Origin: an uncultured Thiocystis sp.
Lineage (GTDB): Bacteria; Pseudomonadota; Gammaproteobacteria; Chromatiales; Chromatiaceae
Direction of reading: 5' to 3'
DNA length: 34,893 nt
Assembly (NCBI RefSeq): GCF_903866365.1
Contig: NZ_CAIPNF010000182.1
Span: 1-34,893, forward strand
Below, one piece after another: positions 24,883-29,824 of this stretch. Numbering within the stretch: the stretch's first letter is position 1; each line of letters opens with the position of its first letter. The position numbers were made by a program, and so were the translations under genes. Under the pieces are notes generated by a model. The model was not told where the DNA came from, made no database searches, and was given only the letters and a program-made list of their open reading frames with translations.

Positions 24883-25719
24883 ATGCCCACCTATGCGATC
24901 GGCGATATCCAGGGGTGCTATCTTGAATTGAGGGCGCTGCTCGACCGGCTTGCCTTCGATCCGCTGACCGACCGCCTGTGGTTCGTCGGTGATCTGGTGA
25001 ATCGAGGACCGGACTCGCTCGATGTACTGCGCTTCGTGCATGCGCTCGGAGAAGGCGCAGTGGTCGTACTAGGCAATCACGATCTGCATCTACTGGCACT
25101 CGCCGCGGGCAATACCAAACACGCCAAAAAGAGCACGTTGGATGCCGTCCTGAAAGCACCGGATCGCGATGAACTTCTGCATTGGCTCCGTCATCGCCCA
25201 CTTCTCCACCATGACCCGGAGCGGAATCTGATCCTGATTCATGCCGGCCTACCGCCGCAATGGGATCTGGCGGATGCGCGCGCGCGAGCCGGTGAACTGG
25301 AGGCGGCGCTGCAAGGAGACGATTATTGTGATTTTTTACTCGCCATGTACGGGGATCAGCCGGACCGCTGGTCACCCGAACTGACCGGCATGGAACGACT
25401 GCGTTTCATCACCAACTGCTTGACCCGTCTGCGCTTCTGCGCAGCGGATGGCACGCTGGCCCTGAAGGAAAAAGGAGACATTGGGAGACAGGCGGCCGGC
25501 CTAATCCCCTGGTTCCAGGTACCAGACAGAAAAACCCGGCATGCGCGCATTATTTTCGGGCATTGGTCGACCCTTGGCTACCGTGAGGAAGATAACGTCT
25601 GGGCGATCGACAGCGGCTGTCTCTGGGGCGGCGCACTCACGGCCATCCAGCTGGACAACATGCCATGGATGCCGATTCAGTTGAACTGCAAGGGGTATCT
25701 CGCACCTGGTCAGGATTGA
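24883..25719 (+). CDS. apaH: Symmetrical bis(5'-nucleosyl)-tetraphosphatase ApaH
   Basis: A 278-residue metallophosphatase that splits Ap4A into two ADP. The catalytic series is intact: GDIQGC (residues 7-12), GDLVNRGPDS, GNHDLH, and HAGLPPQWD further on. The C-terminal half has FGHWSTLGY and the GCLWGGALTA metal-site motif. Length matches the E. coli enzyme (280). It removes dinucleoside polyphosphates made by aminoacyl-tRNA synthetases and acts as an RNA decapping enzyme in E. coli. It converges with folA, with 76 bases between stops and no clear terminator. Confidence 0.95.
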   Translation: MPTYAIGDIQGCYLELRALLDRLAFDPLTDRLWFVGDLVNRGPDSLDVLRFVHALGEGAVVVLGNHDLHLLALAAGNTKHAKKSTLDAVLKAPDRDELLHWLRHRPLLHHDPERNLILIHAGLPPQWDLADARARAGELEAALQGDDYCDFLLAMYGDQPDRWSPELTGMERLRFITNCLTRLRFCAADGTLALKEKGDIGRQAAGLIPWFQVPDRKTRHARIIFGHWSTLGYREEDNVWAIDSGCLWGGALTAIQLDNMPWMPIQLNCKGYLAPGQD

Positions 25720-25795
25720 GCGTCAGCGACGCCGCCGCATCAGACGATGCCGATGCAGTAACACAAAAAACATGCCATCCAGATCACGGGGTCGT

Positions 25796-26356
25796 TCACC
25801 GCCCGCGCTGGAGCTCAAAAAAGGTCATGGCAAAGGCATTGCGTGCATCCGCCGCCTGCTCGATTCGACTCACCTCGCGCCACTGCACGGGATCCCAGTC
25901 TGGAAACAGGGCATCGCCTTCGATCCGGACATGGACACGGGTCAGATAAAGACGGCTGGCGCGTGGCAGTGCCTCGGCATAAAGCGCGGCACCGCCGACA
26001 ATCATCAGCTCAGGAACACTGCCCGCGATCGCAATCGCCGCATCGAGGGAGGAGGCAACGGTGCAACCATCCGGGCGAAAATCAGGATCGCGAGACAGGA
26101 CAATATGCCGTCGTCGCGGCAGCAAACCCGGCAGCGACTCCCAGGTACGCCGCCCCATGACGATGGATTGATCCAGAGTCAATCGCTTGAAGTGCGCCAA
26201 ATCGGCCGGTAAACGCCAAGGCAGGGCATTGTTTCGACCAATGACGCCATTCTCCGCCACTGCGGCAACCAGCGCGAGGATCGGCGCTGCGGTATCCTGA
26301 GCGCCGATAGAATCCAACGCACCCACTACCGACCCCCGCCCCGACTCAGACTGCAC
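25796..26356 (-). CDS. folA: Dihydrofolate reductase
   Basis: A 186-residue type I DHFR, with the enzyme proper starting near residue 25 (APILALVAAVAENGVIGRNNALPW). Active-site features are the Met20-type loop NALPWRLPADLAHFK with its Asp, MGRRTWESLPG for cofactor, and GGAALYAEALP near the C-terminal half. It makes tetrahydrofolate with NADPH. About 24 N-terminal residues precede the usual start. The annotated ATG overlaps rsfS by 11 bases; a start within that extension is possible, but no better ribosome site was seen. It is the last gene of the nadD-rsfS-folA run. Confidence 0.93.
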   Translation of the reverse strand: MQSESGRGSVVGALDSIGAQDTAAPILALVAAVAENGVIGRNNALPWRLPADLAHFKRLTLDQSIVMGRRTWESLPGLLPRRRHIVLSRDPDFRPDGCTVASSLDAAIAIAGSVPELMIVGGAALYAEALPRASRLYLTRVHVRIEGDALFPDWDPVQWREVSRIEQAADARNAFAMTFFELQRGR

Positions 26357-26702
26357 TCGATGCCATCATCGGCTCGGCGGCTGGGGCGGACCAAAGACGT
26401 TCGAGATTATAGAAATCACGCACTTTAGGCAGCATCACATGGACGACGACACCATTCAGATCCACCAATGCCCATTCGCCCTCGGCAACGCCCTCGGTCC
26501 CAAGGGGTGTCTCGCCAGCTTCCTTCGACCGAAAGGCGACAGTCTCGGCGATCGCTTTAACATGCCGATCGGAGGTACCGGATGCGACCACCATGTAATC
26601 AGTGATGGCCGTCTTGCCGCGCACGTCCATAACATTGACATCGCGGGCCTTCATGTCGGAAAGCGTCTCGACGACCAGTTGCCGAAGTTGCTCAAGTTGC
26701 AT
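26346..26702 (-). CDS. rsfS: Ribosomal silencing factor RsfS
   Basis: A 118-residue RsfS/Iojap protein. The family core is plain: VMDVRGKTAITDYMVVASGTSDRHVKAIAE (in two parts, about 23-52), then GVAEGEWALVDLNGVVVHVMLP and FYNLERLW. It binds L14 on the large subunit and blocks joining of subunits when nutrients run short. ATG 26702 lies 72 bases after nadD, the usual partner. The C-terminus adds an Ala/Met-rich tail of about 13 residues. Confidence 0.95.
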   Translation of the reverse strand: MQLEQLRQLVVETLSDMKARDVNVMDVRGKTAITDYMVVASGTSDRHVKAIAETVAFRSKEAGETPLGTEGVAEGEWALVDLNGVVVHVMLPKVRDFYNLERLWSAPAAEPMMASSAV

Positions 26703-26774
26703 GCGTTCTCCTCTACTTAAATGATGAAAATCAATGATGTATATAAGTTTCGCGAAAGCGTTGACGAGACTGAC

Positions 26775-27404
26775 TCACCGATAGAGACCCTCGCGCTTAA
26801 TGATAGCAAGCACCGCCTCGGGCAACAGATAACGCGGACTCAGGCCGCGCGCGATCAATTGTCGAATGCGGGTTGATGAAATCGACACCTGGGTGACGTC
26901 GTGGTACAGGATACGCCCCCCCGGACGCTCCGCCAGGGACGCCGGCTCATCGCAGCCGTACTCCAGATAGAAATTGCGCAGGAAGGGATCGGCAACCGAA
27001 CCATGACCGGGTCGGCGCATCACAACCAGATGCGCCAACTCAAGAATCTCCAGTGGTCGGTACCATGACAGGAAACCAGCGAATGCATCCGCGCCAACCA
27101 ACAGATAAAGTGGCTCATCCACACCCACCTCGGCACGTAGCGAGACGAGCGTATCGTAAGAAAAAGAGCCGCCCGGCCGCTCCAGTTCGCGCCTGTCCAG
27201 GACAAAACCTGGCTGTCCGCCAAGCGCCGCTTCCAGCATCGTCAAACGCATCGCGGCGGCGGCCAGTGGTTGAGGACGATGAACGGCGACGTTCAGTGGA
27301 ATAAAACGCACCTCGTCGAGACCCAAACCCTGGAGACAGTCTAGTGCCGGACGCAGATGTCCGAAATGAACAGGGTCGAAAGTTCCGCCGAGGACGCCAA
27401 TCAT
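26775..27404 (-). CDS. nadD: Nicotinate-nucleotide adenylyltransferase NadD
   Basis: A 209-residue nucleotidyltransferase that turns nicotinate mononucleotide and ATP into deamido-NAD. The adenylyltransferase motif GGTFDPVHFGHLR is at residues 6-18, and the second signature ISSTRIR lies near 180. Length is normal. Upstream on the same strand, 85 bases away, is the 52-aa gene that follows the sulfide:quinone oxidoreductase; whether they share a transcript is open. Confidence 0.95.
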   Translation of the reverse strand: MIGVLGGTFDPVHFGHLRPALDCLQGLGLDEVRFIPLNVAVHRPQPLAAAAMRLTMLEAALGGQPGFVLDRRELERPGGSFSYDTLVSLRAEVGVDEPLYLLVGADAFAGFLSWYRPLEILELAHLVVMRRPGHGSVADPFLRNFYLEYGCDEPASLAERPGGRILYHDVTQVSISSTRIRQLIARGLSPRYLLPEAVLAIIKREGLYR

Positions 27405-27489
27405 CGATTAAGCCGCATCCGCTCCAACGGACATGGGTTCAAGCCAACCGATCCACTTGAAACCACGCATGCCATTGCTTGGACACAAT

Positions 27490-27648
27490 TTAGTTATGCG
27501 ACTTCAACAGAAGTTTCAGGATCTTCAGGTTGATCACCCAGAAGCGGTAAAACTGCCAGATGAAGGATGTCCGCATGTAGCGGACCCATTTCGTGGGCAC
27601 CGGCGGATAGTATGCCTGCTGATAGGGCTCTTTGTTCTTAGCGGCCAT
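27490..27648 (-). CDS. 52-aa basic aromatic-rich small protein beside sqr
   Basis: A 52-residue frame with a proper start. ATG 27648 is preceded by GAGG about nine bases upstream, and the stop is TAA at 27490-27492. The N-terminus is polar and Tyr/Pro-rich (KNKEPYQQAYYPPVPTKWV). The C-terminal 30 residues are rich in Trp, Phe, Tyr, Leu and Lys (WQFYRFWVINLKILKLLLK) and would form an amphipathic or membrane-lying helix. It lies 143 bases downstream of the sulfide:quinone oxidoreductase gene on the same strand. Composition suits a membrane-surface accessory peptide for that monotopic enzyme. I cannot name a family; the link to SQR is inferred from position and chemistry. Confidence 0.68.
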   Translation of the reverse strand: MAAKNKEPYQQAYYPPVPTKWVRYMRTSFIWQFYRFWVINLKILKLLLKSHN

Positions 27649-27791
27649 AAGTCTCTGCCTCGCAGTAGATGTTTCGATCAGCGTCCGATTGAGCCGGACG
27701 ACACCGCAAGGAAGAGGTTATCCCTCTCCCGTGCGCTTTACCACCAGAAGAAGGTGATTTCAACCGGGGGATTGCGATGACTGAAAACGCC

Positions 27792-29249
27792 TCAATCCGG
27801 AAGTATGGACCAACCCGGACGGAGCTTGGCCTGGTAGATGAACACATGGTGCAGGATATACTTCATCCAGTGTCCAGCCAGTCCGATCTCGCCAAAGGTG
27901 AGATTCATGTCCCGTCCATACTCGGGATAGGTTTCGTAATCCGGCACGACCGGGAACACCGTCATGGTGGCGGCGGTACCGTTGAAGATATCCGAGCCGG
28001 TCGAGGCCACGCAGGCCGCGCCCATCTCGCCCATGGAGGCGGAGTGCGTCGGCTCCGGCGCGCCCTTGAGCATGTCGCGGAGACTCTCCGCGACGGCCTT
28101 GCCGATGGTGGCCGAAGGCATGCCGGTACGCGGCGGGGTCGGACTGATCTGGGTGCCGTTGGGGCTCTTCATCACCTTGCTGATGGGATGCGGCGGCGCG
28201 AAGGCGATGCCGATGGCGAAGATGTTCTTGTATTTCGGCGTCTGGTAGGTTCTTGGCCAATCCGCCTTACTCCACTCCTCGAACGGCTTGGGAGCGTAAT
28301 CGGCATCGACCTTCATGAACCCGTTGGGCGCGAAGACCTGATCGGTGATGTCGGCGCCAGACTTATCGAACGCCTTCAGGCCAACCCCCGAGAAAGGCGG
28401 AATCAGCATGGAGAAATCGAAGTTCAGTTCATGATAGGTGCCATCGAGCAATTCGTAGTGAATCTTGCCCGGCTCGATCTTGGTGATGTGCGCGCGGGTG
28501 ATCCATTCCATGCCGCGCTCGACCATCAGCGACTCGGCGAATATCTTGCCGTTGGTCACGTAGCCGCCGCGCGTGATGTGCACGCCGCCCATGCCGAAAT
28601 CGCCCAGTTCGTATTCGTTGCTGATCCAGACTAGCCGCCCGCGCTCGCGCACACCGGCCTCGCGCAAGGCATGATCGACATTGTAGATGTACTCGAAGGC
28701 CGCGCCCTGGCAGGTACACATGCCATGTCCCGTGCCGACGACAAAGGTACGCTCCTCGCCGGCCTTCATCGCCTCGATGTTCTTTTGCAGTTGCGAGTTC
28801 GCCTCCAGCGCGTGGCCAGGCGTGCAGACCGACACGGTATAGCCACCGTCAGGCCCCAGGCCGGGCGTGGCGCCGAAATTCAGCTTGGGGCCGGTGGCGT
28901 TGACCAGATAATCGTACTCGATAACTTCAGTCTGCCCGGCCCGCGACATCTCCGTGTATTCGACCGTCACAAAGGGGCTGGCATGCTCGGCATCGCCTTC
29001 CGGGTTGATCGACAGTGCCTTGGCCTGACGAAAGTCCACGTTAATTTTCTTATAGATCGGAGCAAGCTCGAAGGTCACCTGCCGCTCCGTCATTTCGCCC
29101 ACGCCCACCCAGATATTCGACGGAATCCAATTCCACTTGGAATTCGGCGAAACCACGATAATCTGATGCTTTTTCCCGACCCACTTGCCCAGGTAGCGGG
29201 CGGTGGTGTGACCGGAAATACCCGCCCCAAGGATGACGATACGTGCCAT
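27792..29249 (-). CDS. sqrD: Sulfide:quinone oxidoreductase (type IV-like, SqrD)
   Basis: A 485-residue FAD enzyme that oxidises sulfide and passes electrons to the membrane quinone pool. The N-terminal dinucleotide motif is GAGISGHTTARYL (8-20). Cysteines fit the SQR active site: Cys142 (SVCTPGHA), Cys178/Cys180 (GMCTCQGAA) and Cys413 (AACVAS). The last 30 residues (GHWMKYILHHVFIYQAKL) form the amphipathic membrane-docking end. Wording such as WIPSNIWVGVGEMTERQV matches the longer SqrD/type IV branch of phototrophic sulfur bacteria; type VI is the alternative. GGAG lies seven bases before ATG 29249. There is no signal peptide, as expected. The upstream 240 bases before the IS remnant should hold its promoter. 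Confidence 0.88.
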   Translation of the reverse strand: MARIVILGAGISGHTTARYLGKWVGKKHQIIVVSPNSKWNWIPSNIWVGVGEMTERQVTFELAPIYKKINVDFRQAKALSINPEGDAEHASPFVTVEYTEMSRAGQTEVIEYDYLVNATGPKLNFGATPGLGPDGGYTVSVCTPGHALEANSQLQKNIEAMKAGEERTFVVGTGHGMCTCQGAAFEYIYNVDHALREAGVRERGRLVWISNEYELGDFGMGGVHITRGGYVTNGKIFAESLMVERGMEWITRAHITKIEPGKIHYELLDGTYHELNFDFSMLIPPFSGVGLKAFDKSGADITDQVFAPNGFMKVDADYAPKPFEEWSKADWPRTYQTPKYKNIFAIGIAFAPPHPISKVMKSPNGTQISPTPPRTGMPSATIGKAVAESLRDMLKGAPEPTHSASMGEMGAACVASTGSDIFNGTAATMTVFPVVPDYETYPEYGRDMNLTFGEIGLAGHWMKYILHHVFIYQAKLRPGWSILPD

Positions 29250-29485
29250 ATGCAGACTCCAGGTTCGATTCAGCCCTCGTCGCTTAAAGTTCGTCGCTTC
29301 AAACGGCGTCGATCAATTCCCATCTCACCCTATTCTTATCGACATGAACGATCCTTGTCGAGAAGAAGAAAAAAACGCTTATATACTGATTTAACGCGCC
29401 AAATGCCCGCTCGTAGCCGCAACTTGCAGGACAGGCCGACGAGGATGGATGCGCCGCGCCTATTCTCCGCGAGAGAGCAAAGCCG

Positions 29486-29824
29486 CTATCCCGGATGTTT
29501 CATAAACCTGTGGGCAGGCCCAGAAACGATGGGCGAGGTAGGGCGGATGGCGCGGGTCATCGACCGTCTGGGCGAGTCGTTCGGTCAGACCGATCGGCGG
29601 GTCGACACCGTGCAGAATCAAGGGGCCGAAATCAGAAGACATCGCCCCGCCGTCAACGTCAGCCCGAACGGTCCGGCCGTCGACGGGAGGAAATCGCAAC
29701 GGCTCTTGGGTAAACTGGGACATGGGCAACCTCGTTTGGCTTCTCCGAAGCGTTCTTGGCGGAACGCCAATTTTATCAATTGGTTAAACGAGTGTCGCCC
29801 GTTTTTATGAATAATCCGGGTTAG
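29486..29824. mobile_element. Internally deleted IS1380-type element (MITE-like)
   Basis: A 339-base element bounded by imperfect inverted repeats: 29486-29506 and 29804-29824 match at 18 of 21 positions (ends CTATCCCGG and CCGGGTTAG). Inside, on the minus strand, only the first part of a transposase remains. No target-site duplication is visible (flanks gccg and actc). It is therefore a deletion derivative of a full IS that could in principle be moved by an intact copy elsewhere. Confidence 0.66.
29507..29723 (-). pseudogene. IS1380-family transposase, N-terminal fragment
   Basis: Begins at ATG 29723 with MSQFTQEPLRFPPVDGRTV, then DVDGGAMSSDFGPLILHGVD and IGLTERLAQTVDDPRHP, the N-terminal layout of IS1380-family DDE transposases (the Ser-Ser-Asp-Gly-type motif and the Gly-Leu-Thr helix). 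After about 70 codons the sequence runs straight into the element's inverted repeat, so the catalytic domain is gone. It is non-functional. Confidence 0.66.

Follow-up and report, generated by a model that had tools for sequence, protein, structure and literature searches.

A conserved small gene that follows the gene for sulfide:quinone oxidoreductase (SQR) was found in DNA of an uncultured Thiocystis sp., and its 52-residue product is inherited together with one clade of SQR, with a linkage close to one-to-one. The enzyme encoded upstream fits type IV (SqrD), as assigned on its three cysteines and Ala-Cys motif. Partnership between the 52-residue protein and SqrD is highly probable. According to our best explanation, the protein would be an obligate small partner (subunit) of SqrD, with a helix completing the membrane and quinone face of the enzyme; we give this fuller reading an even chance.

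The window, i.e. the whole stretch of 34,893 nt that was analysed, carries the following features at this locus.

27490..27648, minus strand: gene of the 52-residue protein (52-codon ATG frame), the proposed small partner of the adjacent SQR; translation MAAKNKEPYQQAYYPPVPTKWVRYMRTSFIWQFYRFWVINLKILKLLLKSHN
27658..27661, minus strand: GAGG, a ribosome-site-like sequence read from the DNA, 9 nt 5' of the ATG
27649..27791, minus strand: spacer of 143 nt between the SQR stop codon and the ATG of the peptide gene
27792..29249, minus strand: sulfide:quinone oxidoreductase, a flavoprotein of 485 aa, type IV (SqrD)-like

The preliminary description of this DNA had claimed a short frame with a ribosome site downstream of an SQR gene on the same strand, and this arrangement was confirmed, both genes lying on the minus strand with the peptide gene behind the SQR frame. 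A consensus scan detected no terminator-like site in the 143-nt spacer. The gene on the other side of the 52-residue frame encodes a CTP_transf_like protein, presumably nadD-like. A DDE_Tnp_1_4 transposase fragment is located at 29460-29729 of the minus strand, some 210 nt 5' of the start of SQR. The organism is probably a close relative of Chromatium okenii, as its genome belongs to one genus with G511, in which the peptide agrees in contig number and coordinates with that of C. okenii DSM 169 (L003).

The frame at 27490-27648 is a conserved protein gene under purifying selection. The genome contig scan gave at least 30 confirmed relatives of the peptide in other genomes, with 62-96% identity among the matches listed, and a second copy was found in the own genome with 57% identity to the window peptide. 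In the alignment of 32 peptide sequences, 16 columns are invariant (N5, P8, Y9, Q10, Q11, P15, P16, P18, T19, R26, W31, Q32, R35, F36, I39, and L46), and the N-terminal half is extremely conserved. For six separate peptide-gene pairs, pN was 0.051 against a pS of 0.55, indicating strongly purifying selection, and omega was between 0.015 and 0.134 in 10 of the 12 computed pairs (finite dS), the other two being saturated. The pair of the window and Chromatium okenii DSM 169 (L003), of which the synonymous sites are saturated, showed the reversed pattern in its antisense reading and in the two alternative frames (pS 0.06-0.15, pN 0.24-0.28). Homologues beyond the own strain and a Ka/Ks ratio far below 1, on which the preliminary description had made its proposal depend, were thus both observed. 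Short frames often arise by chance, 51 frames of at least 30 aa overlapping the region 25500-29500, and the frame at 27490-27648 might have been a chance frame or an RNA element instead of a protein gene; such an origin is refuted by the frame-specific purifying selection at the codon level together with the 16 invariant columns in 32 sequences, and its probability is negligible. Genes of this size had been supposed to escape annotation often, and this one does not always do so: all three annotated PLSDB plasmid records examined list the gene as 'hypothetical protein'.

The type of the SQR was judged from its sequence. The best match among PDB sequences is the SQR of Aquifex aeolicus (E 6e-38), and in the HMMER alignment Cys142, Cys180, and Cys413 of the window SQR align with cysteines of the A. 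aeolicus chain, which we take to be the catalytic ones; three cysteines are thus present as in types I and IV. SQRs are monotopic flavoproteins of six types (PMC9666304), and type IV is marked by an Ala at the position of Val331 of TrSqrF, just before the C-terminal Cys (PMC9666304). In the window SQR, Ala412 stands directly before Cys413 (GAAC413V). Type IV corresponds to SqrD, represented by Alvin_2145 in Allochromatium vinosum (PMC3368242; PMC11267869), and a single clade is described for types I and IV (PMC4584964). Assignment to type VI (SqrF) was rejected for the window SQR, a chain of 485 aa with its C-terminal cysteine at 413, whereas the type VI enzyme TrSqrF is a short chain with quinone-channel residues at 331, 333, and 366 (PMC9666304). 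The window enzyme resembles the known SqrD proteins (Alvin_2145; CT0117) in organism group, in the three catalytic cysteines, and in the Ala before the C-terminal cysteine, and it differs in its proposed small partner, of which no mention was found in the SqrD literature as far as examined. The occurrence of SqrD is linked with intracellular sulfur globules (PMC3368242), a link that would suit a small protein acting as the carrier or relay of the sulfane sulfur or polysulfide product of SqrD. This role was rejected, since cysteine is absent from the window peptide and none is conserved across the family, and we consider it very improbable.

The linkage between the two genes was strict. In all 32 first loci (30 loci of other genomes among the matches listed, the window, and the second copy of the own genome), SQR was located directly upstream of the peptide gene on the same strand, the contig of L010 holding only the end of SQR. 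In a draw of 398 genomes from the phylum, the own genome counted, a strong peptide match was obtained for 25, and SQR at 72% identity or more was detected in the identical 25, which are not independent of each other as they belong to four families and seven genera, with 22 of them in a single family (f40, which by matching coordinates includes the Ghiorsea loci). In a further 81 genomes of this draw, the SQR-like proteins do not exceed about 40% identity, and none of these genomes gave a strong peptide match. Within the family of the window, both the peptide (E 0.001 or better) and SQR were found in the identical 38 of 116 genomes, representing 19 genera; 41 of the 42 peptide matches stand just behind SQR on the same strand, and the remaining one (G430:C8) is fused to an SQR remnant. 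At this last locus (L139, G430:C8 65277-66083), approximately the first 245 residues of SQR run on in frame into the helix portion of the peptide, an arrangement like that left by a deletion of the intervening stretch. In the Nitrosomonadales family that includes G364, strong peptide matches were found in 42 of 150 genomes (8 genera) and SQR in 43, all 42 being among those 43, and every one of the 42 matches lies just behind SQR on the same strand. The genome G618 of this family carries SQR without the peptide in the 165-nt tail before the contig end, and gave no genome-wide match at E 0.001. The tendency to sit beside sulfur-oxidation genes, on which the preliminary description had also made its proposal depend, was therefore observed for SQR genes almost without exception, in the first loci as well as in the genome surveys.

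Some weak matches were set aside as chance: the profile matches of G316, G185, G203, and G355 in the phylum draw (E 0.001-0.009), with no SQR within the 6 kb fetched around them, and that of G531 in the Nitrosomonadales family (E 6e-4), a genome that was negative for SQR at E 1e-60. At the locus L071 (G152:C21), the SQR match is split into two pieces about 200 nt apart, and the peptide behind it looks intact; the contig G251:C307 ends inside a second SQR.

Given the near-universal adjacency behind one kind of SQR in the surveyed genomes, a small second protein probably takes part in the work of this enzyme. Such tight linkage and joint inheritance agree equally well with an assembly factor for SqrD, which would act in FAD insertion, folding, or membrane delivery and then leave the finished enzyme; the structure predictions described below, however, speak weakly for a structural role, with the helix positioned at the C-terminal domain, and we hold the assembly factor to be unlikely.

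The neighbourhood was compared for 46 loci, up to about 5 kb on each side, using frames of at least 70 aa only (with many short loci among them, and with the contig of L023 occurring again as L058). Apart from SQR and shadow frames, no neighbour cluster was common to more than 6 of the 46 loci, indicating that SQR and the peptide gene travel as a pair. Clusters of 38, 26, and 16 loci were considered as extra neighbours and rejected; they overlie SQR and were interpreted as its shadow frames. Six of the 46 loci (L017, L019, L026, L027, L029, and L054; Pfam check on L017) have a gene for cytochrome bd subunit I no more than 5 kb away from the pair. This neighbour, together with the extreme conservation of the N-terminal half, would be in line with a tether between SqrD and a partner that uses quinol, for example cytochrome bd or the photosynthetic apparatus, the N-terminal EPYQQAYYPP being the docking piece. 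However, cyd genes are nearby in only these 6 loci, the pair occurs in both phototroph and iron-oxidiser genera, and the relatives in Sulfurovum and Marivivens are without EPYQQAYYPP and yet still linked to SQR. A tethering role thus appears decidedly improbable.

The two divergent relatives are both encoded on plasmids. In Sulfurovum mangrovi (Campylobacterota), a protein of 53 aa with 41% identity to the window peptide is encoded behind an SQR of 63.5% identity, and in Marivivens (Alphaproteobacteria), a protein of 52 aa with 23% identity is encoded behind an SQR of 60.2% identity. The membership of the Marivivens protein rests on position and motif, since it was not recovered by tblastn with the window peptide. 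Both have retained the PT, R, Q, RF, and K positions. A shortened form of the peptide, a frame of 38 aa with WQ..RF preserved, stands behind an SQR of 43% identity in G449. The part common to the family is therefore the C-terminal helix and not the tyrosine/proline-rich N-terminus. The peptide motif was detected neither in the five distant SQR loci scanned (L098-L102) nor near the FCSD (L106) or the short SQR (L107) of the own genome, the latter of which we read as type VI. In the second pair of the own genome (L064; G000:C415, 1718-3371), codon 480 of the 485 codons of SQR is an in-frame TGA, GMATCQ stands in place of GMCTCQ, and the peptide has lost several otherwise conserved residues. A copy related to L064 was found at G430:C1 (L140), without the early stop. 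The pair of type IV-like SQR and peptide is also present in several genera of neutrophilic iron oxidisers, as seen in those of the loci L013-L029 that bear the titles Ghiorsea, Gallionella, Gallionellaceae, or Sideroxydans. SQR is reported to be common in Gallionellaceae (PMC10734462), and is present in Mariprofundus strains that showed no growth on sulfide (PMC5513912).

No family of Pfam-A or NCBIfam was hit by any of 18 peptide members at E up to 0.1, and nothing credible was obtained from Pfam, NCBIfam, and PDB sequences by single-sequence, profile, or member-wise searches. The statement that the peptide belongs to no named family therefore holds for Pfam and NCBIfam. A search of open-access papers, as far as their text was available, found no description of a small partner of SQR, and such a partner of SqrD is probably previously undescribed. 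Two known systems offer a comparison. Flavocytochrome c sulfide dehydrogenase (FccAB) consists of an SQR-like flavoprotein and a second subunit, a c-type cytochrome; unlike this FccA-type subunit, the 52-residue protein is without the CXXCH heme motif and without any cysteine. CydX is a very short accessory subunit of a respiratory enzyme and is encoded directly behind the enzyme genes; the comparison is of the works-like kind only, as the enzyme is different and none of the 18 peptide members matches a small-subunit family of Pfam or NCBIfam.

The structure of SQR and peptide was predicted twice, with different queries and in both cases as one read-through chain, so that neither prediction is a proper test of the complex. 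The input alignments of the two models share many rows; the second is without named Chromatiaceae records but includes one SQR row (L142) from the family of the window. In the first model, a single C-terminal helix of SqrD is predicted at 458-474, after Cys413, and the helix of the peptide at model residues 528-548, which correspond to residues 29-49 of the peptide and belong to blocks with a mean pLDDT of 74-79. For the peptide as a whole, the block mean pLDDT ranged from 47 to 79 in the first model and from 27 to 59 in the second, which was poorer overall (mean pLDDT 75.5). The fold is the same as that of type I SQR (A. aeolicus 3hyv and Acidithiobacillus ferrooxidans 3t31), with Z of 38-39 across some 400 residues in the first prediction. 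When aligned by structure with A. aeolicus 3hyv_A, both predictions match as far as the last residue of the peptide and chain residue 416, a region that we assume to be the second C-terminal helix of the A. aeolicus enzyme. The first C-terminal helix includes Phe385 (PMC9666304), and residue 416, 31 residues further on, is thus clearly beyond it. Most rows of human SQOR align as far as the peptide helix and chain residues 441-445 in both predictions. As judged from alignment end points, the peptide helix was reached by 6 of 16 SQR rows in the first prediction and by 5 of 16 in the second; nine A. ferrooxidans rows per prediction, plus human 6oi6_B in the second, stop where SQR ends or within the linker, and seven rows of other flavoproteins per prediction also reach the peptide helix. 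With low to middling confidence, these models suggest that the peptide helix may sit near where SqrA and human SQOR end.

The SqrD chain itself seems to have no further helix behind its single C-terminal one. For most SQRs, a pair of amphipathic C-terminal helices within one chain is described, with the C-terminal domain serving for membrane binding and the quinone site, and type VI is named as the exception with one helix (PMC9666304). Our one-helix reading of type IV differs from this account. By hand alignment, the distant SQRs L098-L101 continue for 22-26 more residues after the G-(K/H)-W helix, and SqrD ends six residues after this helix; MAFFT placed the gaps differently from this hand alignment, which leaves SqrD without helix 2. 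The total of residues after the C-terminal cysteine is similar (71-75 in L098-L101 and 72 in SqrD), because SqrD is longer before the helix.

The preliminary description had also proposed a C-terminal helix able to lie on a membrane, and a membrane-surface partner of SQR. The helix is predicted as noted above, and the partnership is well supported by the linkage. The suitability for membrane was found to be weaker: the hydrophobic moment of peptide residues 21-48 was not significantly above that of shuffled sequences, 32% of which reach the value of the peptide. Amphipathicity as proof of membrane contact was accordingly dropped, and placement at the membrane surface is an inference.

The linkage data on one side and the limits of the two predictions on the other led us to rate the partnership with SqrD much higher than the helix mechanism, for which the chances appear to us about balanced. 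By this mechanism, the 52-residue protein would bind to the C-terminal domain of SqrD. The SqrD chain would stop after the first of the two amphipathic helices that, in most other SQRs, are connected with attachment to the membrane and with the quinone channel; the missing second helix could be replaced in trans by the C-terminal helix of the small protein. As a result, SqrD and quinone would meet at the membrane surface. As a wider and more tentative proposal, one that we think possible and somewhat doubtful, type IV SQRs might be obligate two-subunit enzymes, in which a separately encoded protein of about 52 residues supplies the second helix, absent from the main chain; without this protein, docking or quinone reduction would be faulty. 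If this is true, recombinant type IV SQR studied alone has been an incomplete enzyme.

A conserved small partner tied to one type of SQR would redefine the SqrD enzyme. Genomes of purple sulfur bacteria and neutrophilic iron oxidisers could then be screened for this SQR clade by an inexpensive sequence marker, and co-expression suggests itself for SQRs, enzymes described as hard to make in heterologous hosts (PMC9666304). A defined deletion of the small gene becomes directly informative.
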